A stretch of DNA of 64,000 nucleotides from assembly GCF_014489495.1 (NCBI RefSeq), contig NZ_CP060780.1, forward strand, positions 2,615,001-2,679,000, written 5' to 3'. This DNA comes from Sphingomonas daechungensis (GTDB lineage Bacteria; Pseudomonadota; Alphaproteobacteria; Sphingomonadales; Sphingomonadaceae). Below are positions 43,495 to 54,576 of the stretch, piece after piece. Below the pieces are notes generated by a model, which was not told where the DNA came from, ran no database searches, and saw only the letters and a program-made list of their open reading frames with translations. The translations under genes were made by a program, and so were the position numbers. Within the stretch, counting starts at the first letter, position 1; each line of letters begins with the position of its first letter.

Positions 43495-43581
43495 TTAGAA
43501 GAGCGCCTTGAGAACGCCCGTCACAACCAGCAGGCCGATGAAAAAGATGATGATGACAATCCAAATGAGCGCCTTGACCAT
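43495..43581 (-). CDS. 28-residue hydrophobic membrane peptide
   Basis: Starts at ATG 43581 with an ideal AGGAG site seven bases upstream (minus strand). The product is almost a single transmembrane helix (KALIWIVIIIFFIGLLVVTG) with a short basic/hydrophobic end. Too short for homology assignment by eye, but the ribosome-binding site and composition argue for a real gene. Its start codon overlaps, on the opposite strand, the start of the lipoprotein gene at 43580. Confidence 0.5.
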   Translation of the reverse strand: MVKALIWIVIIIFFIGLLVVTGVLKALF

Positions 43582-44169
43582 GGCTAATCTCCTCAGGGTC
43601 CGAACGAGCAGGACCTCTCGAAGTTCAGCCGCCTTGCTCGCCATCCTGATGCTTGGTGCGTGTTCGCAGCAGGCTGCCCAGAACGGTTCGGTTGCGGTGG
43701 AGCCCGAGACGAACGTCGTCGTAGCCAATGCCCCCGCCACCGAAGCGCCGCTCAATCCCCCGCCCCGGGCGAGCCGGGCGGCCTGCCCGACGATCGCACG
43801 CCTGTTTCGGAAGGACCGATCGATCCCAAGAGCGCTCAGGGTGCCGGTCAGGTGCTGCAGACCTATTTCGCACTCGCGGAGCAGGGCGAGTTCACGGAGG
43901 CGAACAAGCTCTGGTCGGACGGTGCGACCAAGCTCGATCTTGCCCAATATAGAGAAGTCCATGCCAACATCGGCGGACCGGGCGACATGGAAGGCGCGGC
44001 GGGTTCGAGCTTTGTCGATTATCCCGTCCAGCTCTACGGGCGCACCAAGGACGGCAAGGAATTCAACCTGCGCGGAACGATGACCCTGCGCCGCGTGATC
44101 GATGTGCCCGGCTCGACCGAAGAGCAGCGCAAGTGGCACATCTTCAAGGCTGCATTGCCGGCCCAGTAG
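43580..44169 (+). CDS. Lipoprotein of unknown function
   Basis: Reconstructed as about 196 residues. A signal with a lipobox (ILMLGACSQQ) is followed by a Pro-rich linker and a domain with AGQVLQTYFALAEQGEFTEA, NKLWSDGATKLDLAQYREVH, SSFVDYPVQLYGRTKDGKEF and GTMTLRRVIDVPGSTEEQRK. The frame jump at CCCC 43763-43766 restores NPPPPGEPGGLPDD. The domain looks like a small alpha/beta (NTF2-like) fold, but I cannot name a family. The start could be a little further in. Confidence 0.65.
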
Positions 44170-46205
44170 AGGGCGGCGGGGACCGGAGCCGATCGTCTTG
44201 GTCAGCTTCAGCTTGAACACAGGGCTCGTCACGCGCCGCTCGTAGATCTCCTGGATCGTCGGTGCGATCAGCCGGTGGCGGTAGTGCTTCGTACCGAGCC
44301 CATCGAGATTGGCCGTCATCGAGAAAGTCCGGCTAAAGCTGTGCGTCCATGACAAGTCTACCGAAACGTAGCTTTCCCTGCGGATCTGGAAATCGCGCGA
44401 CCGGCTTTCGTAATTGAACTGGATTTGCGCGACGTCGCCCGGCCGCTGGCCCTTGTCCTTGCCGCGCCATTCCAGCGTCCCGTTGGCAGTGTAGCGGAAC
44501 AGCCGTTCGCTGTCGGAACTGAAAACCGGGTCGATCGGGACGCGGCTGTCGAACAGATTGACGCTGGCCATTCCCTTGACCCGTTTGAATAAAGGCGAAC
44601 TGACGTCGAATTGCGCGCCGCGATCGGACCTTTCACCTGCGTTGACGATCGTCGCGACAGTCCTGCCATTCGCGTCTACGAAGTAGCTCGAACTCCACAG
44701 CCGGTCGGTCTCCCGATCGTAGAGGATCAAGCCGACCTCCAGCTTCTTGCGGCTGTAGTGAAGATTGACCTCGAACGAATCAGTCGTCTGGTCCTGCAAA
44801 TCGGGATTCCCGAGATCGATCGTTCGTGATCCGGTCTGGATCGGAAAGGGCCGAAGCTGATCGACCCACGGACGATCGATCCGCTTGCTGTAGCTCAGCG
44901 TCAGATTGAGCGATTTGCCCAGCGGGTGCTCAAGGTGAAACGTGGGGAACAGGTTCGTCCGGGATACGTCGGCCGTCGGAAAGCCGGGCTTTTCACGGTT
45001 CGCCACAGGCTCTCCACACGCGCGCCCGGCATGAGCGTCCACGTCCCGAAGGTCTTCTGGAAGGTGACAAAACCCGAGAGCTTGTTCTGATGGACAGAAA
45101 AGCTCTCGCTCTGGTTGGGTGGCTGCGAAGGGCCGGTGAACTCGAAGCGATAATCGTTGTCGTGTGATTCGTGCGCCCATTCCGCGCCGGTGGACAAGAT
45201 CTTGTCCTTCCCCATCGGGTGGACCCAGTCCACTTTGGAAGTTGTATATAAGCGAGAGCTCTCCCGCTCGCTGCGAAAGGTGCTGTTCGCATATTCGGTG
45301 AAAAGATGCTGCCGGTGGTTCGGGTTGCCGAAAAGGACCGCGCTCGCTTTCAGGGTTTCGCCGTCGACCTTTCCCTTGTGGTCGTACGTGAATTCCATTC
45401 CGCCGAACGACCCGCCTTCGCCTCCTCGATACCGTTCGGAATAGGATATGAAGTCCGGCGTCAGTCCGACGAATTCGACGTCGTTCCGATTGTCGTTGAC
45501 CCATCCGCCGCCGAACATGCTTCCCGAAATATTCGTCCTCGCGCTTAACTCGTAAGTGAGCTTCCCGCTTCCCCATGCGGCGGCCGAGTGATTGTCCCCG
45601 CCGCCGTCCTCGGTGTTGATGGTCGGAACTCCCGGGACCAGCTCGACCGTCCGGAGCTTGCGGTAGGTCGACTTGTTGTACCGCCCCGCTCGTCCCTGCA
45701 GCTGGATCTCGTAGGTGAGCTTCCCTTTCTTGTTTCGGATCGACCCAGTGCCGTTGAAATATCCGAGTGACGACGCCTGGATGCTGCCCGATCCCGTCAT
45801 TCCCTCCTTCTTCTTCTGGCGGAGGACGAAGTTGATGATGCCCCCGGTCCCTTGCGCGGAATATTGAGCGGAGGGGTTGGTGATGACCTCGATCCGCTCG
45901 ATGTCACTGCCGTGAAGCGTCCGCAGATAGGCAATCGGGTCGCCCTGGACCGGGCGCTCGTCGACCACGATGGTGACGCCCGATGCGCCGAGCAGCATGA
46001 TTTGGTCGTCAGGCGTGATCGTAACCGCCGGAAGGCCGCGCAAAAGCTGCAGGCTATCCGCCTGTGCCGAATGCGGAGTCTCGTTCACTCGGTATGTCCG
46101 GCGATCGATCCGCTGCGCTTGGTCGGAGCGCGTCGCCACGACTTCGATGACGTCTTCTTCTTGCTCGGCGGGAGCAACGATGGCTGGGGGATCGGCGGCG
46201 AACAT
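44144..46205 (-). CDS. TonB-dependent receptor (outer-membrane beta-barrel family)
   Basis: Reconstructed as about 687 residues. The N-terminal plug has QAQRIDRRTYRVNETPHSAQ, ITPDDQIMLLGASGVTIVVD, IERIEVITNPSAQYSAQGTG and GIINFVLRQKKK. A long barrel follows (LNLTLSYSKRIDRPWVDQLR, TTDSFEVNLHYSRKKLEVGL) of the OMP_b-brl_3 type. Jumps at GGG 44986-44988 and GGGG 44178-44181, the latter placing the stop at 44146. No convincing signal peptide is visible at the apparent start, so the 5' end may be further upstream. Ligand unknown. Confidence 0.82.
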
Positions 46206-46741: not shown

Positions 46742-47367
46742 ATGCAGGGGGCGGACGGTCACTGGGAACTCAGCGAGCTGCGCGAGTCTATCCACCATTC
46801 GCCCATTCCCACGATCGTCACCGATTGCCGGCTTGCCGACAATCCGATTGTCGAGGCGAACGATGCCTTCCTCCACCTCACCGGGTATCGCCGCAACGAC
46901 GTGATGGGAAAGAACTGCCGATTTCTCGCCGGGAGGGCACGGAGCCCGAAGCGCAGGACGTGTTGCGGACTGCGGTCGCCTCAGGAGAGCCGGCGATTGT
47001 CGAGTTGACCAACTATCGCAAGGACGGCTCGCCCTTCCGCAATGCAGTCATGCTTGCCCCTGTCCGTGCCGAGGACGGCTCCGTCGCCATGTTCATCGGC
47101 TCGCAGATGGAAGTTGCCGCGGTTTCCAGGCCTCGTCAGGCGAAGGCGCTGGAACGGATACGCACGCTCACCCCGCGACTGCGTCAGACGCTGGAACTGG
47201 TTGCCATGGGCTATCGCAACAAGCAGATCGGCGGCTTCCTGGGCATCGAGGAAAAAACGGTGAAGATGCACCGTTCGCGCCTGATTGAAGCGCTTGGCGT
47301 CAAGACCACCGCGGATGCCATTCGCATCGCGGTCGAAGCGGAGATCGTCCCTACCGGTCGCGACTGA
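46742..47367 (+). CDS. Short LOV-HTH photoreceptor transcription factor (EL222-like)
   Basis: Reconstructed as about 208 residues from ATG 46742. The LOV core carries GKNCRFLAG, where the Cys (about residue 59) is the one that forms the flavin adduct under blue light. DNPIVEANDAFLHLTGYRR and ELTNYRKDGSPFRNAVMLAP are further LOV hallmarks. The C-terminus is a LuxR-type HTH: LTPRLRQTLELVAMGYRNKQ followed by EEKTVKMHRSRLIEAL. The frame jump at GGG 46931-46933 lies directly after the LOV motif and restores AGEGTEPEAQ. It overlaps the opposing prenyl-synthase gene by 17 bases. Light-dependent DNA binding is inferred from EL222. Confidence 0.94.
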
Positions 47368-48263
47368 TCGAGAAGCGGGCGATCGCGATCAACAGCTCCG
47401 CCGAGGCTGCAAACGGGTGCAAATGCTCGATCGCCTGATCGACCAGCATCTCGGCCTGCCGGCGCGCGCGATCCGCCCCGAGCAGCGTCACGAACGTCTC
47501 CTTGCCCTGGTCGCCGTCCTTGCGAAGGCGCTTACCGACGGCCGACGGATCGCCCGTCACGTCGAGGAGATCGTCGGCGATCTGAAATGCGAGTCCAAGG
47601 TTTTGCGCATAGCCCGAAGGCTCAGCCTCTCCTCGGCCCCAGCCCGGCCAAGCACCGCGCCACATTCGACCGACCAGCCGATCAGCGCTCCCGTCTTCAA
47701 TCGCTGCAGCCGCGCAACCGCTTCCATGTCCGCGGGTTGGTATGCCGGCAGCAGATCGAGCATTTGCCCGCCCGCCATGCCGAACGCGCCCGCTGCATGA
47801 GCGAGGTCCCGAACGAGCTCGACGCGGACTTCGGCAAGGGGTGCGTCGCGGGGTCGGACAGGATCTCGAACGCCAGCGCCAGCAGGGAGTCGCCGGCAAG
47901 AACCGCGGTGGCCTCATCGAACGCGACGTGCACGGTCGGCTTGCCCCGGCGAAGGTCGTCATCGTCCATGCACGGCAGATCGTCGTGGATCAGCGAATGG
48001 ACATGGATGCACTCGACAGCGAGCCCCGCTCGAAGCGACAAGGATCGGGGAACGTCGAACAGGTCGGCGGAGGCGCACGCCAGCAGGGGCCGAAGGCGCT
48101 TACCTCCGCCTATTGCGGCGTGACGCATGGCGTTCAGAAGGCGGGCGCTGGGATCGGAGGGTTGTACCAGCACCTCTTCGAACATGGCGTCGATATCCGC
48201 CGCAATCCGCGCAAGCGGTTGATCAATGTGCGTGAAGTCCCGGGCGACTTCAGCCGTACTCAT
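47351..48263 (-). CDS. Polyprenyl diphosphate synthase (IspA/CrtE type)
   Basis: Reconstructed as about 304 residues. GGGKRLRPLLACASADL, SLIHDDLPCMDDDDLRRGKP (first Asp-rich motif), LGLAFQIADDLLDVTGD (second Asp-rich motif) and GKETFVTLLG define the short-chain prenyl-transferase family, IspA-like in motif spacing. It supplies farnesyl- or geranylgeranyl-diphosphate. In a carotenoid neighbourhood GGPP is likely, but chain length cannot be read with confidence. Jumps at GGGG 47838-47841 and near 47626. ATGA overlap with ispH. Confidence 0.92.
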
Positions 48264-49243
48264 GCGAGGGCCATTCGCTTGAAGACGGTGGTTTCTTTCT
48301 CGGATCCCGTTTGCTCGACACTGATCCGGTACCGGCCGGCGAGTGCGGACAGGATCGCCTGGACGCTGCTTTCGGGAGTCGAGGCAGCCGCGGTGATCCC
48401 GATGACTCCGGAGGCGGGCAGGCACTCCCAGTCGATATCGTCGGGACCGGCGACCAGCTGGACCTCGCCGCAATGCGCTCCCGCGACCTCGGCGAGCCGG
48501 CAGGCATTCGACGAGAAATGCTCGCCAACGACGATAATCGCGTCACTGCGGATCGCGACTTCGCGAACGGCCGCCTGGCGATTGGTCGTGGCGTAACAGA
48601 TGTCGCTGGACGCCGGCCCCTCGAGGTCGGCGAAACGCTCGCGCAGCGCCTCGACGATCGCATGGGCGTCATCCACCGAATAGGTCGTCTGGACCGCATA
48701 AGCGGCAGGCTCATCTCGTCCTACCGGCAGGGCCGCGACTTCCTGGAGGCTGTTCACGACATGGGCGCCGACGGACGAAACGTGGCCGAGGGTCCCTTCG
48801 ATTTCCGGATGTCCCTTGTGGCCGATCAGGATGATTTGCCGACCGTGCCGCTGATGCCGCTCCACCTCGCGATGAACCTTGGCGACCAGCGGGCAAACGG
48901 CGTCATAGGCCGTCAGATCTCTACGGCGAGCGTCGGCAGCGATGGCCGGGGCGACACCGTGCGCCGAAAAGACGACGACCGCGCCGGGCGGAATCTCGTC
49001 CAGCTCTTCGACGAAGATCGCGCCTTCCGCCTCGAGACTGCGCACGACTTCGAGATTGTGTACGATTGCGCGGCGGACGAAGACCGGCGCACCGTGCTTG
49101 GCAAGAGCGTCGCGGACGGCATCGATCGCGCGGCGAACGCCGGCGCAAAACCCGCGAGGAGCCGCTAGAATCACTCGAATTTCGGGCTTATCCGCCAGGA
49201 GCAGCGGGGCGTCGGAGGCCGGGGTGATTTCGTCCGCGCGCAA
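48260..49243 (-). CDS. ispH: 4-hydroxy-3-methylbut-2-enyl diphosphate reductase
   Basis: 327 residues, intact. Iron-sulfur cysteines and neighbours: APRGFCAGVRRAIDAVRDAL, VVFSAHGVAP (His), YDAVCPLVAKVHREVERHQR, IGHKGHPEIEGTLGH and ICYATTNRQAAVRE (TxNRQ), then GEHFSSNACRLAEVA. It makes IPP and DMAPP in the last step of the MEP pathway. Coupled by four bases to the prenyl synthase, so precursor supply and chain building are co-transcribed. Confidence 0.97.
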   Translation of the reverse strand: MRADEITPASDAPLLLADKPEIRVILAAPRGFCAGVRRAIDAVRDALAKHGAPVFVRRAIVHNLEVVRSLEAEGAIFVEELDEIPPGAVVVFSAHGVAPAIAADARRRDLTAYDAVCPLVAKVHREVERHQRHGRQIILIGHKGHPEIEGTLGHVSSVGAHVVNSLQEVAALPVGRDEPAAYAVQTTYSVDDAHAIVEALRERFADLEGPASSDICYATTNRQAAVREVAIRSDAIIVVGEHFSSNACRLAEVAGAHCGEVQLVAGPDDIDWECLPASGVIGITAAASTPESSVQAILSALAGRYRISVEQTGSEKETTVFKRMALA

Positions 49244-49318
49244 ATCGAGTATCGCCTTCCGACTGCAAACACCCCCATCCTGCAGCGTAAGTGACTGAAA
49301 ATTGCGAATCTATATGGG

Positions 49319-49743
49319 CTAAAGCAGGTATTGCATGCGCACGCTCGTGCGAGTGAAGCCGGAGGGAAGTTCGATGCTTACCTTGTCAAAACGCGGCGGC
49401 CCGAAGCGGATCACGGGATTTCGTGAGAAGCCGAAACCCTCCTTCGGGATTCCGACCAAAGTATCGAGCTTCTGGTTGGCATTTTCGTCATGAAAGACCG
49501 ACAGAGCATATCGGCCGACCGGAACCCCGGTGAACTCAAGGCGGCGGACGTCCGCAGGGACCGATTGCTTCAGGGCCTCGGGTCCTTCTTGCAGTTCGGG
49601 AAGAAGGCCGGATTGCGCGTCATGCAAGCGTGGATGGTGCCGTGACTGTTTCGAAGCGCCGTAAGGTCGACTTCGACCGTAGCCGTCGGCGTGGCAGCGG
49701 ACAGCAGCGGAACGGCAACGGCGACAAGGGCGGATCTGCGCAT
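49319..49743 (-). CDS. Secreted DUF2141 protein
   Basis: Reconstructed as about 141 residues from ATG 49743. The signal peptide ends LLSAATPTA, followed by VEVDLTALRNSHGTIHACMT and, after the frame jump at GGG 49580-49582, PEALKQSVPADVRRLEFTGV, GRYALSVFHDENANQKLDTL and GIPKEGFGFSRNP. This is the DUF2141 pattern. Function is unknown. It is frequent beside carotenoid genes in this lineage as I remember it, which is not tested here. Confidence 0.88.
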
Positions 49744-49793
49744 CCGTCAGGTGCTTATCAGTGCTCGGAAGCATTCGCCAACCGGGTGCTGAC

Positions 49794-50932
49794 TTGAGCC
49801 GCATCGTCATCGCCGGCGGCGGCCTGTCCGGTTGCCTGGCCGCCCTCGCGATCGCGAGGCGCTTGCCGAATGTGGACCTGCTCCTGATTGAGCAGGGCGA
49901 CACGCTGGGCGGCAATCACACCTGGTCGTTCTTCGATTCCGACGTTCCACCGGAAATCCGCTGGGTGATCGAGGGCGTCGTCGCCTCCCACTGGCCCGCG
50001 CACGAAGTTCATTTCCCGCGTCGCAGCCGGACGATCGATATCGGCTACAGCAGCATCCGGTCGACCGAGCTCGACCAAGCGGTCCGCGCCGCCCTCCGGC
50101 CCGACCAGATCCGTCTGAATGCCCGAATCCACGCGGTTGACGCCAACTCCGTCAGCCTCGACGGCGAAACGATCGCTGCGGATGCTGTCATCGACGCTCG
50201 CGGTCCCGCCGCCATGCCCGGCCTCGACCTCGGCTGGCAGAAGTTCGTCGGCCAGTACCTCCGCTTCGATCGGCCGCACGGCCTCACGCTTCCGGTCATC
50301 ATGGACGCCACCGTCGAGCAGATCGACGGCTACCGCTTCGTCTATCATCTTCCGATCAGCCCGACCGAATTGCTGATCGAAGACACGTATTATTCGCCGA
50401 CGCCAGTGCTCGACCAGGTGGCGCTGCGCGCACGCATCGAGCGGCTGGCGCTGGCGACCGGCGGAGGTTCGCCGGAGGTCGTAAGCGAGGAAAGCGGCGT
50501 CCTGCCGATCGTCCTTGGCGGGGATGTCGATGCCTTCTGGCAGGACGCCACTGTCCCGCGCCTTGGCCTTCGGGCGGCTTCTTCCACCCGACGACCAGCT
50601 ATTCGTTTCCCGATGCCGTGGCGAATGCCGCGCTTCTCTCGGAACAAGGCGAGTTGACCAGCGAGGCTCTCTACAGGCTGTATCGAAATCGGTCGGAGAA
50701 ACTGTGGCAGGAGCGGTCGTTCTTCCGCATCCTCAATCGCATGCTTTTCGAAGCTGCCGAGCCCGGGCAGGCCTACCGCGTCCTGGAACACTTCTATCGC
50801 CTCCCGCCAGCCATCATCGCCCGCTTCTACGCCGCGCATTTGTCCGGCGTGGACAAGATGCGCATACTCACCGGCAAGCCGCCCGTCCCGATCGGCCGCG
50901 CTATTACCGCCTTGCGGCGGAGCGCAGCATGA
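49794..50932 (+). CDS. crtY: Lycopene beta-cyclase
   Basis: Reconstructed as about 379 residues, TTG start at 49794. RIVIAGGGLSGCLAALAIAR (FAD-binding), QGDTLGGNHTWSFFDSDV and VIDARGPAAMPGLDLGWQKF are bacterial CrtY motifs. ELLIEDTYYSPTPVLD and, after a frame jump at GG 50576-50577, RAGFFHPTTSYSFPDAVANA complete the family pattern. It closes both ends of lycopene to give beta-carotene. The stop overlaps the crtI start by four bases. Confidence 0.94.
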
Positions 50933-52407
50933 AGCGGAAGGCAGCAGTTATCGGGTCAGGCTTCGGCGGCCTCGCATTGGCCATCCGCCTGCAATCGGCG
51001 GGGATCGACACCACGGTAATCGAGGCTCGCGACAAGCCTGGCGGCCGCGCCTACCATTGGGAAAAGGACGGGCACGTCTTCGATGCCGGCCCGACCGTCA
51101 TTACGGACCCGGCCTGCCTGCGGGAGCTGTGGGAACTGACCGGCGCCGACATGGCCAGGGACGTCAGCCTCGTGCCCGTGTCGCCGTTCTACCGGCTGTC
51201 GTGGCCGGACGGCACGATCTTCGACTACGTCAACGACGACGAACGATTGTTCCGCCAGATCGAGGCGCTCGAACCCGCGGATGTCGAGGGCTACAAGCGC
51301 TTCCTGCGTTATTCCGAAGGCGTCTATGTCGAAGGTTACGAGAAGCTCGGCGCGGTCCCGTTTCTCGATTTCAAGTCGATGTTGCAGGCAGCGCCGCAGC
51401 TCGCTCGGTATCAGGCCTGGCGGTCGGTCTACTCCGTCGTCTCCCGCTTCGTCCGGAATGAGAAATTGCGGCAAGCCTTGTCCTTCCACAGCCTGCTTGT
51501 CGGCGGGAACCCAATGACGACCAGCGCCATCTATGCGCTGATCCACAAGCTTGAGCGGGACGGCGGTGTCTGGTTCGCTGAAGGCGGCACCAACCGCCTT
51601 GTCGCGGGGATGGTCACGCACCTGGAGCGCATCGGCGGCACTGTCCGCCTCGGCGATCCGGTCTCGGGCATCTGGACCGAGGGCGATCGGGCGACCGCAG
51701 TCCGGACCCGGAGCGGCTGGACGGGCACGTTCGATGCAGTCGCCTCCAACGCCGACATCGTCCGGACCTACGAAATGCTCGCCCATCCGTCCGCGCGGCG
51801 GCGGTCCACCAGCCTCAAGCGCAAGCGCTTCTCACCCTCTCTGTTCGTCGTCCATTTCTCCACGACCGGTTCGTGGGAGGACGTGCCGCACCACAGCATC
51901 CTGTTCGGCCCACGCTACGCGGCCTTGCTCAAGGAGATCTACCGCGGCTCTGCACTGCCGAACGATCCATCAATTTACCTCCACCATCCGACAGCGACCG
52001 ACGCGTCGATGGCGCCCGAAGGACGGTCCACCTTCTACGCTCTCGCTCCCGTGCCGCACCTTGGACGGACCAACTTCGACTGGGAGAAGGAAGGCCCGGC
52101 GTACGCCGAGCGCCTGCTTGAGATCCTGGAAGACCGGATGCTGCCCGGCCTCCGCTCACGTCTTGGTGAGGTCTTCCATTTCGGTCCCGCCGATTTCGAG
52201 CAGGAGCTGAATTCGCACCTCGGGTCGGCCTTCAGCCTGGAGCCCGTTCTGACCCAAAGCGCCTATTTCCGCGTCCACAACCGCGACGATGTCGTCCGCA
52301 ACCTCTATTTCGTCGGCGCGGGCACACACCCGGGAGCGGGCATTCCGGGCGTCGTTGGAAGCGCCAAGGCAACCGCGGGCCTGATGATCGAGGACCTCGC
52401 GGCATGA
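50929..52407 (+). CDS. crtI: Phytoene desaturase
   Basis: 492 residues from ATG 50929, frame intact. AAVIGSGFGGLALAIRLQSA (dinucleotide-binding), EARDKPGGRAYHWEKDGHVF and FDAGPTVITDPACLRELWEL in the N-terminal third. The C-terminal FAD signature is YFVGAGTHPGAGIPGVVGSA followed by KATAGLMIEDL. It introduces four double bonds into phytoene to give lycopene. Middle gene of the crtY-crtI-crtB operon with four-base overlaps on both sides. Confidence 0.97.
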   Translation: MKRKAAVIGSGFGGLALAIRLQSAGIDTTVIEARDKPGGRAYHWEKDGHVFDAGPTVITDPACLRELWELTGADMARDVSLVPVSPFYRLSWPDGTIFDYVNDDERLFRQIEALEPADVEGYKRFLRYSEGVYVEGYEKLGAVPFLDFKSMLQAAPQLARYQAWRSVYSVVSRFVRNEKLRQALSFHSLLVGGNPMTTSAIYALIHKLERDGGVWFAEGGTNRLVAGMVTHLERIGGTVRLGDPVSGIWTEGDRATAVRTRSGWTGTFDAVASNADIVRTYEMLAHPSARRRSTSLKRKRFSPSLFVVHFSTTGSWEDVPHHSILFGPRYAALLKEIYRGSALPNDPSIYLHHPTATDASMAPEGRSTFYALAPVPHLGRTNFDWEKEGPAYAERLLEILEDRMLPGLRSRLGEVFHFGPADFEQELNSHLGSAFSLEPVLTQSAYFRVHNRDDVVRNLYFVGAGTHPGAGIPGVVGSAKATAGLMIEDLAA

Positions 52408-53279
52408 CCCGCGAAGAAATCGTCGCCGGCGCCTACGAAGCGATCCAGAACGGCTCAAAGTCGTTTCGCGCCGCAAGCCGCCTGTTCGATCGTACGACGC
52501 GCGAACGGGCGTGGCTGCTTTACAGCTGGTGCCGACATTGCGACGATGTTTGCGACGGCCAGACTTATGGTTTCGGCAATGGCGTTCGCGGTAATGTGTC
52601 CGTCCTGCGCGGGAAAACACATCGCGCCGTCGCCGGCGAGGCGATGACGGAATTGCCGTTCCGGGCTTTGTCGCTGCTGTTGTCCGAATGCCCGATCCCC
52701 GAGCGCTTCCTAGATGATCACTTGCGCGGCTTCGCACTCGACGAGTCGGGGTGGCAGCCGGGGACGGAAGAGGACCTCGCGCTCTACTGCTACTATGTCG
52801 CGGGCGCGGTCGGCTGCATGATGGCCATCCTGATGGGCGTACCCGCCGACGACGAGGACACGCTCGAGCGCGCTGCGGACCTCGGCATCGCCTTCCAGCT
52901 TTCAAACATTGCACGGGATGTCCGCGAGGATCTGGCCGCCGGCCGCTGCTACCTACCGCTCGACTGGATGAACGAGTTCGGCGTCACTCGCGAGACCCTG
53001 TTCGACGACCGGAACGAGGACGCCCTGGTCGCCATCGTCAAACGCCTCGTCGACAGCGTGTCCGTCTATGAAGAAAGCGCGCGCCTGGGCGTCGAAAAGC
53101 TGCCGTTCCGGTCCCGTCTTGCCGTCCTCTCGGCACTTCGCATTTACGGGGCAATCGGGCGTCGCGTTGGACGGCTGGGCCGCGCCGCCTGGGACCAACG
53201 CGTCACCGTCGGAAAAATTCAGAAGCTGGCCTACGTGGTCCCTAGCTTTGCCGAGGCCGTAGTCGCGGGCCGCTCCTGA
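52404..53279 (+). CDS. crtB: Phytoene synthase
   Basis: 291 residues, intact. SKSFRAASRLFDRTTRERAW, LLYSWCRHCDDVCDGQTYG (first Asp-rich region), YCYYVAGAVGCMMAILMGV and LGIAFQLSNIARDVREDLAA with GRCYLPLDWMNEFGV (second Asp-rich region) are the squalene/phytoene synthase signatures. It condenses two GGPP into phytoene. The 3' end overlaps the opposing sterol-desaturase-family gene by 38 bases. Confidence 0.97.
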   Translation: MTREEIVAGAYEAIQNGSKSFRAASRLFDRTTRERAWLLYSWCRHCDDVCDGQTYGFGNGVRGNVSVLRGKTHRAVAGEAMTELPFRALSLLLSECPIPERFLDDHLRGFALDESGWQPGTEEDLALYCYYVAGAVGCMMAILMGVPADDEDTLERAADLGIAFQLSNIARDVREDLAAGRCYLPLDWMNEFGVTRETLFDDRNEDALVAIVKRLVDSVSVYEESARLGVEKLPFRSRLAVLSALRIYGAIGRRVGRLGRAAWDQRVTVGKIQKLAYVVPSFAEAVVAGRS

Positions 53280-53985
53280 ATTCGCCAAGGCCGCGATCGG
53301 TCCCGCACAGCCTGTCCCAGAAACGAAAGTACAGGCCGAAATTGCAAAGGTGCTTTTCGTGGTGCCGCTGGTGATGGCTCGCAGTGATCAGCCATTGCCC
53401 GGCAGGCCCGCGGACCAGCCAGTTCGGAAACAGCTCCCAGCCCATGTGATTGGTCACGCCCATCACCGTCATGATCAGCAGAACGGTGAGCAGCGCGGCA
53501 TAGTGGATCGGGATCAGCAAGACGAGCGCCGGGACGAGCACTGCACCGGTAATCGACTCCCAGGGATGGAAGCTCATCGCCGCCCAGGCGGTCGGATCGC
53601 GGCTGGCGTGGTGGACGGCGTGCATTCTCTTATAGACGCTTGGCCGATGCATCAGCCGATGGGTCCAGTAGAACCAGCTGTCATGAAGCAGCAGGTAGAT
53701 CACGACCGACGCCGGTAGCCACCACAACGGATAGTCCGCCACATTGGAGTAGATACGTGTCCACCCGTGCGCCTGCCACCCCCAGGCCAGGATTCCGGCT
53801 GGAGCGGCATAAATGAACGCGCTCGCCAGCGACCAGCCGATCTCCTTGCGGATCTGTTCGCGGCGGTCACCGTAGAAGCCCGGCAATTTTCGATCGGTCA
53901 GCCACGCGAATGCGCCGCTGACGGCGAGATATCGAACTCCGACGATGACCGTCATCGCAATTACGGACAAGATCAGCGCGGTCAT
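53242..53985 (-). CDS. Sterol desaturase/fatty-acid hydroxylase family membrane oxygenase
   Basis: 247 residues, intact. Polytopic, with the histidine-box set of the family: HDSWFYWTHRLMHRPSVYKR, HAVHHASRDPTAWAAMSFHP and ASHHQRHHEKHLCNFGLYFR, then FWDRLCGTDRG. These ligate a di-iron centre for O2-dependent hydroxylation. It lies between crtB and crtZ in the same direction as crtZ, so a carotenoid substrate is plausible, including 2,2'-ring hydroxylation of the CrtG kind. A lipid substrate cannot be excluded. Confidence 0.88.
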   Translation of the reverse strand: MTALILSVIAMTVIVGVRYLAVSGAFAWLTDRKLPGFYGDRREQIRKEIGWSLASAFIYAAPAGILAWGWQAHGWTRIYSNVADYPLWWLPASVVIYLLLHDSWFYWTHRLMHRPSVYKRMHAVHHASRDPTAWAAMSFHPWESITGAVLVPALVLLIPIHYAALLTVLLIMTVMGVTNHMGWELFPNWLVRGPAGQWLITASHHQRHHEKHLCNFGLYFRFWDRLCGTDRGLGEFRSGPRLRPRQS

Positions 53986-53991
53986 CTCGGC

Positions 53992-54489
53992 CTAGCGCCG
54001 CGGCTCGCGAAGTGTCGCGTGCTCGCTCATGCCGAGCTGGCGCTTCAAGGCATCGGCGGGCGGTGCCCACAGGAATCCGAAGCTGACCGACCCATATTTG
54101 CCGCTGGTCGCGTGATGGAGCTTATGCGCCTGGATGATTCGCTTCATGTACGTCGAGCGTGCGACGTAACGATGGCCGATGCGCTGGTGCACGATAACGT
54201 CGTGGAAGCCGAAGTAGATGGCGCCGTATGCGGCGATCCCCGCCCCGACCCAGGCAGCCCATTCACCCCATCCCAGCTGCACGCCACCCAGCAGCAGCAC
54301 GATCGACGGGATCGCGAAAATCAACGCGTAAAGATCGTTAAGCTCGAACATCCCCTCGCGCTGGCGATGATGGCTTTCGTGCAGGAACCAGCCGGGCCCA
54401 TGCATCACCCAGCGGTGCGCTACATAGGCCACCCCCTCCATCGCGAGAATGGTCCCTGAAAACAGCAATATACCGACGAGAAGGTTCAC
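53992..54489 (-). CDS. crtZ: Beta-carotene 3-hydroxylase
   Basis: 165 residues, intact. AYVAHRWVMHGPGWFLHESH with HHRQREGMFELNDLYAL, then FGFHDVIVHQRIGHRY and IIQAHKLHHATSGKYGSVSF, match the four His clusters of CrtZ (fatty-acid hydroxylase superfamily). It hydroxylates beta-rings to make zeaxanthin. Six bases upstream of the related oxygenase gene, same strand. Confidence 0.95.
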   Translation of the reverse strand: MNLLVGILLFSGTILAMEGVAYVAHRWVMHGPGWFLHESHHRQREGMFELNDLYALIFAIPSIVLLLGGVQLGWGEWAAWVGAGIAAYGAIYFGFHDVIVHQRIGHRYVARSTYMKRIIQAHKLHHATSGKYGSVSFGFLWAPPADALKRQLGMSEHATLREPRR

Positions 54490-54576
54490 GCGTCGCCCTA
54501 TAGACCTGCACGCACGGGGTTCGAAACAGTCTTTAGCCTATACCCGAAAGACGCGACGCATTCAGGCGGGCACCAT

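Follow-up and report, generated by a model that had tools for sequence, protein, structure and literature searches.

A LOV-HTH regulator gene beside the carotenoid and isoprenoid genes of Sphingomonas daechungensis: a candidate blue-light switch with EL222-like sites

Closest described systems and the proposed switch

EL222 of Erythrobacter litoralis, which couples a LOV domain to a LuxR-type helix-turn-helix (HTH), is a standard optogenetic tool, and we know of no natural role established for it. Here we describe an EL222-like LOV-HTH gene in Sphingomonas daechungensis that borders carotenoid (crt) and isoprenoid genes and may place some of them under light control; it lies in a 64,000-nucleotide stretch of contig NZ_CP060780.1 (positions 2,615,001 to 2,679,000), hereafter the window. 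The window protein resembles EL222 in domain order, Cys motif, HTH residues, the predicted fold of a relative and the type of candidate site, and differs in belonging to a separate clade and in its crt/isoprenoid neighbourhood.

Light control of carotenoid genes in non-phototrophs is known mainly from the B12-based LitR/CarH regulators (PMC6739363; this and the other PMC articles are cited from excerpts). LitR/CarH likewise regulates the carotenoid genes of a non-phototroph in response to light (PMC9758184), but combines a MerR HTH with a B12 domain, whereas here a flavin LOV domain is joined to a LuxR-type HTH; in the window regulator Pfam matched only PAS and GerE/Sigma70_r4_2, with neither a MerR HTH nor a B12-binding domain. 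LitR/CarH loses DNA binding in the light, whereas the window regulator is predicted to bind in the light. The nostoxanthin cluster of Sphingomonas elodea has the same enzyme set (crtG, crtY, crtI and crtB, with crtZ apart), and the excerpt describing it names no regulator (PMC3324416). The window differs in that crtZ and a crtG-like gene are neighbours on the same strand and in that a LOV-HTH gene flanks the cluster. Like the lux box of LuxR, an inverted repeat, the candidate LOV-HTH sites read ACMTG ... CAKGT, but with a spacing of 8 in the window's clade or 10 in the clade that we call II, and with conserved inner bases. The photoreceptor family is already known, and its wiring to carotenoid or isoprenoid genes was not found in the excerpts of the open-access literature, to which the search was confined; the terms LOV, LuxR, regulator, photoreceptor, PAS and lytB do not occur in PMC5989583.

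On the sequence evidence, the best-supported reading is that the LOV-HTH protein puts pigment genes under light control. We put at roughly 0.6 the probability that the regulator activates ispH(-crtE) and crtZ-crtG in blue light and so raises photoprotective pigment. The protein family, the predicted fold of a relative, the recurring neighbourhood and the tendency of the sites to accompany the LOV gene were computed here; binding of the sites by the window protein, activation rather than repression, and a pigment response we infer. As in EL222, the HTH would be held against the LOV domain in the dark, and blue light would form a flavin-cysteine adduct, leading to a dimer that binds inverted-repeat sites. 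At these sites the dimer would most likely activate ispH(-crtE), supplying isoprenoid precursor, and crtZ-crtG, supplying hydroxylated xanthophylls; more IspH together with more CrtZ-CrtG would raise photoprotective pigment in the light. If true, this wiring would give the LOV-HTH family a natural job, with a colour readout in pigmented strains, and extend carotenoid control by a flavin-based light switch, while clade-specific operators could serve as orthogonal parts.

Regulator family and gene neighbourhood

The photoactive Cys motif GKNCRFLAG reported by the first-pass annotation of this DNA is present, and the LuxR-type HTH reported with it is PF00196 (E 2.6e-13); Pfam assigns PAS/LOV and GerE domains to the regulator. 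The G, N, C and R of the motif are invariant or nearly invariant in 13 relatives. Among PDB entries, EL222 is the closest in sequence (C-terminal part E 1.4e-35, N-terminal part E 6.4e-14), and it is also the top fold match (8a5r; template modelling scores 0.82/0.85, 48% identity, 190 alignment columns) of an AlphaFold2 model of the intact relative L033 (predicted local distance difference test 91.8). Family members were taken to be single intact proteins of about 200-222 residues with both domains; the relatives are intact in this sense and the frame in the window is broken. By these sequence and model criteria, the regulator is predicted to act, like EL222, as a one-component protein that responds to blue light.

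A tree built from 84 LOV-HTH rows, with a midpoint root that serves display only, joins the window gene to those of S. hankyongi and S. sediminicola KACC 15039, the latter being its nearest relative among the compared rows (77% identity), in clade I (27 rows). Clade II (27 rows with L203) contains the sphingobial LOV-HTH genes, and EL222 lies outside both, in a 9-row group with L181 and others. The description of the regulator as EL222-like therefore stands for family and fold and does not extend to orthology. In the DNA fetched, crt linkage is seen for none of the eight other genes of the 9-row group; L182, in the wider 14-row EL222 group, lies near a CrtI-like gene of only 40% identity, which may be another desaturase. 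The window genome also holds a second LOV-HTH gene (L052, G000:C1:2275746-2276342), in a 13-row group of same-genus paralogues, with no crt-gene match within its 20 kb locus. LOV-HTH genes of Dyella, a gammaproteobacterium (L055, L056, L057, L059 and L067), nest within the mainly alphaproteobacterial clade I, which suggests transfer.

Across the family, LOV-HTH genes were found at E <= 1e-65 in 117 of 397 genomes. Among 83 LOV loci, 16 (clade I 7, clade II 8, elsewhere 1 doubtful) have crt or isoprenoid genes at a distance of 5 kb or less. The 83 are a non-random sample: G022 and G024 were included for being best matches, and L120 and L184-L186 on account of linkage visible in place lists. At ten loci (the window, L065, L034, L061-L064, L171, L197 and L202) the LOV gene points toward the 3' end of either ispH or crtE. 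This neighbourhood recurs more than chance would allow. Within the window's genus, 13 of the 71 genomes searched, the window's included, carry a crtB at least 56% identical to that of the window; a LOV gene is adjacent in G000 (the window genome), G207, G022 and G024, and none was found in the fetched stretch of eight others, G228 being left out (12 assessable clusters) as its contig ends inside ispH. Judged by eye from printed places, G000, G111, G266, G308 and G374 have crtI at most 10 kb from a LOV-HTH gene. The crt-linkage label needs 12 changes on the 84-row tree; the nine linked rows as one clade were rejected (p 1.8e-9), the same rows with two unlinked sisters gave p 0.077, and crt linkage may have had a single origin.

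A few observations were made by eye alongside. A folK-like gene near the LOV gene is common to G022 and S. hankyongi (open reading frame translations), and a tRNA-like sequence stands just upstream of the LOV gene of G022 (L034, about 10.4-10.5 kb). In G111 (L120, 12185-14395) a short ispH frame followed by a transposase-like reading frame, at a second crt island, suggests a decaying cluster.

Candidate operators before pigment and regulator genes

In the window the LOV-HTH gene stands tail to tail with crtE-ispH, and crtY-crtI-crtB and crtG-crtZ border it too. The genome (G000) comprises 3.0 Mb in two contigs with a completeness of 86.6%. The features are:

46742..47367, + strand: LOV-HTH (EL222-like) regulator gene; frame broken once, just after NCRFLAG
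47351..48266, - strand: prenyl diphosphate synthase, crtE/ispA type; split over three frames
48260..49243, - strand: ispH (LytB); intact, start codon provisional
49312..49330, - strand: candidate LOV-HTH operator before ispH, TACCTGCTTTAGCCCATAT; on its left it overlaps the last codons of the DUF2141 gene
49319..49743, - strand: DUF2141 gene (PF09912) between ispH and crtY; broken, two frames; absent from the first-pass annotation
49794..50932, + strand: crtY, lycopene beta-cyclase; broken once (two frames)
50929..52407, + strand: crtI, phytoene desaturase; intact
52404..53279, + strand: crtB, phytoene synthase; intact
53242..53985, - strand: crtG-like fatty-acid hydroxylase (PF04116), candidate 2,2'-beta-hydroxylase, named after PMC3324416; intact
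53992..54489, - strand: crtZ-type hydroxylase (PF04116), crtZ name from the first-pass annotation; intact
54528..54539, - strand: candidate LOV-HTH operator 5' of crtZ-crtG, AGGCTAAAGACT, an exact match to the EL222 consensus RGNCYWWRGNCY

The prenyl synthase, ispH, crtY, crtI, crtB, the CrtG-like hydroxylase and the crtZ-type gene all lie where they had been placed before. The crtZ-type gene has no NCBIfam match, and its name is backed by its conserved place in crt clusters. Annotations of CrtG homologues read sterol desaturase or fatty-acid hydroxylase (PMC3324416).

For clade II the sequence evidence for direct control is good, since one palindrome precedes both the LOV genes and crtI; for the window it is moderate. 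Inspection of ispH-crtI divergent promoters by eye suggested a motif, and a six-site matrix made from it was tried on unused DNA, the LOV upstream regions. This matrix matched 7 of 11 in set A at p < 0.05 (Fisher 1.5e-6) and 1/7, 0/5, 0/18 and 1/23 in the other groups; among 20 further LOV loci, six had a match scoring 10 bits or more in the 100 bp 5' of the LOV gene, with about 0.26 expected by chance (from 32 matches listed over 247 kb). De novo, the palindrome ACMTGNCC-N4-GGNCAKGT was found before 21 of the 27 clade II LOV genes (log-likelihood ratio, LLR, 137.4 vs 55.1-59.6 in six shuffled sets). A matrix made from LOV upstream regions only, at a threshold of 9 bits (density 0.203 per kb in linked clusters vs a background of 0.111 per kb), matched within 250 bp 5' of crtI in eight of nine linked clusters, L184 being the ninth, and in six of them also 5' of ispH. 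Expectation-maximization on the LOV upstream regions of set A gave a modest 69.1 vs 51.4-64.7 in shuffled sets; the value for set B+D (67.2 vs 52.0-57.7) was not used, the shuffled sets having had fewer starts than the data. The upstream regions of LOV genes in the EL222 clade yielded nothing in a de novo search with equal starts.

Nineteen crt loci without a nearby LOV gene gave one match 5' of crtI, inside crtY coding sequence, and four 5' of some crt gene. The corresponding Fisher value (8/9 vs 1/19, 2.5e-5) is confounded by gene order and was not used, because in most of these controls crtI follows crtY without a promoter-sized gap; our confidence in light control is unchanged, since the recurrence of the palindrome before crtI does not depend on the 19-locus control. 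The same matrix also matches 5' of some crt gene in two of nine LOV-less genus clusters and two of seven linked clade I clusters, one of which is L202, with a match about 142 bp 5' of its ispH match. Several of the matches in these control loci fall inside coding sequence. An exact-motif scan gave 16 matches in 15 of 397 genomes, including the defining G111 and G125, and twelve of them have no LOV gene in the fetched flank. In G401 and G441, which were not used to define the motif, an exact copy lies immediately 3' of a LOV gene without crt linkage and precedes a short gene encoding a 51-residue protein with one hydrophobic stretch (L164:6052-6207 in G441; by eye in G401). In G125 (L131, 6294-6476) an HTH-only LOV-HTH remnant lies beside crtE-ispH-crtI, and the promoter motif there is still exact.

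In the window's own clade, the EL222 consensus is exact before crtZ both in the window (54528) and in S. sediminicola, the three differences between the two falling at degenerate positions (p per promoter 0.015 and 0.01, respectively, uncorrected for promoters tried). Mismatches to the ispH-type site, as scored at the crtZ promoter, are 2, 5, 5 and 6 in linked clusters and 4, 5, 5, 7, 7, 7, 8 and 8 where no LOV gene is adjacent. For ispH they are 0, 0, 0, 1, 4 and 6 in linked clusters and 3, 4, 4, 4, 5, 5 and 7 in those that are not LOV-adjacent; L123, with 0 mismatches, was counted apart, in neither group. The stretch CTTTAGCC before ispH had first been dismissed as the DUF2141 stop region common to LOV-less clusters, and was brought back by its non-coding right half and by copies in G121. 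The pattern TACMTNCTTTAGNCCATRT, with at most one mismatch, occurs six times across 397 family genomes, in four of them: G000, G282 and G121 each have it before ispH, G121 has two further copies in front of two Pyrid_ox_like genes, and G396 has a single one. The three ispH sites are all LOV-linked and were all used to make the pattern, G282 and G121 representing other genera. The two additional G121 sites lay outside pattern-making, and their reverse complement agrees with the natural EL222 site 'peak B', as quoted in PMC10521638, at 17 of 19 bases, a level reached by none of 200,000 random sequences. With two mismatches allowed, G022 has a site before crtZ and a CrtW-like gene (NF045690, E 1e-67, under its cut-off). 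The joint search described below also returned a 12-base palindrome, CGCATGCG, which is partly coding and was dropped, and the EL222 consensus before DUF2141 was rejected at a best match of three mismatches.

Counted by hand, about 28 bases separate the midpoint of the ispH site from a CACTTA box downstream of it, and about 31 bases separate the midpoint of the crtZ site from a downstream TATAGG. The two midpoints thus fall near -41 and -43, where activators of the LuxR type usually sit.

Pyrid_ox_like genes were noted at L209, L208 and L205 (G121 and G282). In G121 they have the LOV-HTH-type site in front, in two copies (the second seen by eye), one of them divergent from a MipA gene; in G282 they lie within the LOV/ispH cluster. 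The Pyrid_ox_like genes of both genomes are candidate further targets.

A wider proposal, to which we give somewhat less than even odds, is that LOV-HTH proteins are the light switch that governs the supply of carotenoids and isoprenoids in many members of the Sphingomonadaceae, filling the role that LitR/CarH has elsewhere. The two paralogous clades would be separately wired, possibly independently, through the operator codes ACCTG-N8-CATGT (clade I) and ACMTG-N10-CAKGT (clade II), and the LOV genes of clade II would regulate themselves.

Light control weighed against its alternatives

Several results weigh against activation of ispH(-crtE) and crtZ-crtG by the LOV-HTH protein. A light switch of the pigment genes had been proposed in the first-pass annotation, with a shared EL222-like operator to be looked for before ispH and crtY; the recurring neighbourhood and the sites before ispH and crtZ-crtG speak for it, but no good site precedes crtY (best EL222-consensus match three mismatches, p 0.65). 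The window's own LOV gene has upstream at best a one-mismatch match to that consensus (p 0.15), and the clade I LOV upstream regions share no palindrome (LLR 35.8 vs 34.1-43.9 shuffled). The left part of the window ispH site is coding and common to LOV-less relatives, so that its agreement with peak B (14 of 19 bases, reached by 19 of 200,000 random sequences) is inflated, TACCTGCTTTAG being also the end of the DUF2141 reading frame. The same conserved coding end inflates part of the score of a joint search over the crt and LOV promoters of linked clusters, which returned a palindrome (W20, LLR 75.3 vs 42.7-49.7 shuffled) with its best members before ispH. An ispH site with at most one mismatch occurs in 4/6 LOV-linked and 0/7 LOV-less clusters (p 0.021, or 0.063 if L123 is LOV-less), these sites having themselves supplied the pattern and two of the four clusters being close relatives. 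At two mismatches the LOV-less G007 (2) and G014 (1) also match, and the LOV-bearing G024, G252 and G053 do not match even then. For clade II, few LOV-less loci are a fair control: crtI heads a unit in only three of the 19 (L129, L130 and L132; by eye), and these have no match (8/9 vs 0/3).

Linkage is moreover sporadic, and S. hankyongi has a clade I LOV gene without a phytoene synthase over the cut-off, so other targets exist; on this evidence the LOV gene can probably outlive the pigment genes. Both observations would suit an incidental neighbourhood, in which the LOV-HTH protein controls other genes, for example for stress proteins, and merely lies beside crt genes in some lineages. Such a neighbourhood would also account for adjacency in only 16/83 LOV loci and 4/12 assessable genus clusters, for the 4 of 77 LOV-positive genomes without a crtI match at E 1e-100, and for the sites before Pyrid_ox_like genes in G121. 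It fits poorly with the sites before ispH and crtZ in linked clusters, with the clade II palindrome before crtI in eight of nine, and with the lack of a full ispH site in the LOV-less genus clusters scored, L123 excepted, and we regard it as unlikely, though the most serious of the alternatives. The LOV-HTH protein might instead repress from these sites in the light or act in the dark, which we consider improbable given their position about 41-43 bases before the presumed start, where LuxR-type activators sit. EL222 itself represses when its operator is placed inside the core promoter (PMC9614035). The candidate sites could also be bound by the second LOV-HTH protein (L052), which has the HTH stretch EKTVKMHR in common with the crt-linked gene and EL222; we think this quite improbable, as G007, G014 and G021 hold paralogues of the same 13-row group (L051, L037 and L041) and the eight crt/ispH promoters scored in their clusters (L110, L113 and L112) all have at least three mismatches. 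Antisense interference through the 17-base 3' overlap with crtE had also been suggested. The overlap with the opposite-strand prenyl-synthase gene is real (47351-47367), and one like it occurs in S. sediminicola, but a gap separates the LOV gene from its convergent neighbour in the sphingobial clusters L061-L064 and in G022, and in G024 that neighbour is not crtE; since the overlap is not conserved, antisense control is very unlikely.

There remains the frame of the regulator gene itself. Its position, motif and HTH are as first annotated, but it is not a single open frame: a one-base break puts the LOV half (46742-47008) and the remainder (46825-47367) in different frames. A pseudogene in this strain, with a cluster no longer under light control, would explain the break, yet we hold this to be improbable as well. 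Similar breaks occur here in crtE, crtY and DUF2141, and S. sediminicola KACC 15039 (L065), with the same gene order (LOV facing crtE, ispH, DUF2141, crtY-crtI-crtB, crtG-crtZ), has its own in LOV, crtE, crtY, crtI and crtG. Given these breaks and the 86.6% completeness of the two-contig assembly, assembly errors are the likelier explanation. A TonB-receptor-like gene at 43495-46205 of the window also seems, by eye, to be split over frames, as expected if the assembly holds many single-base errors.

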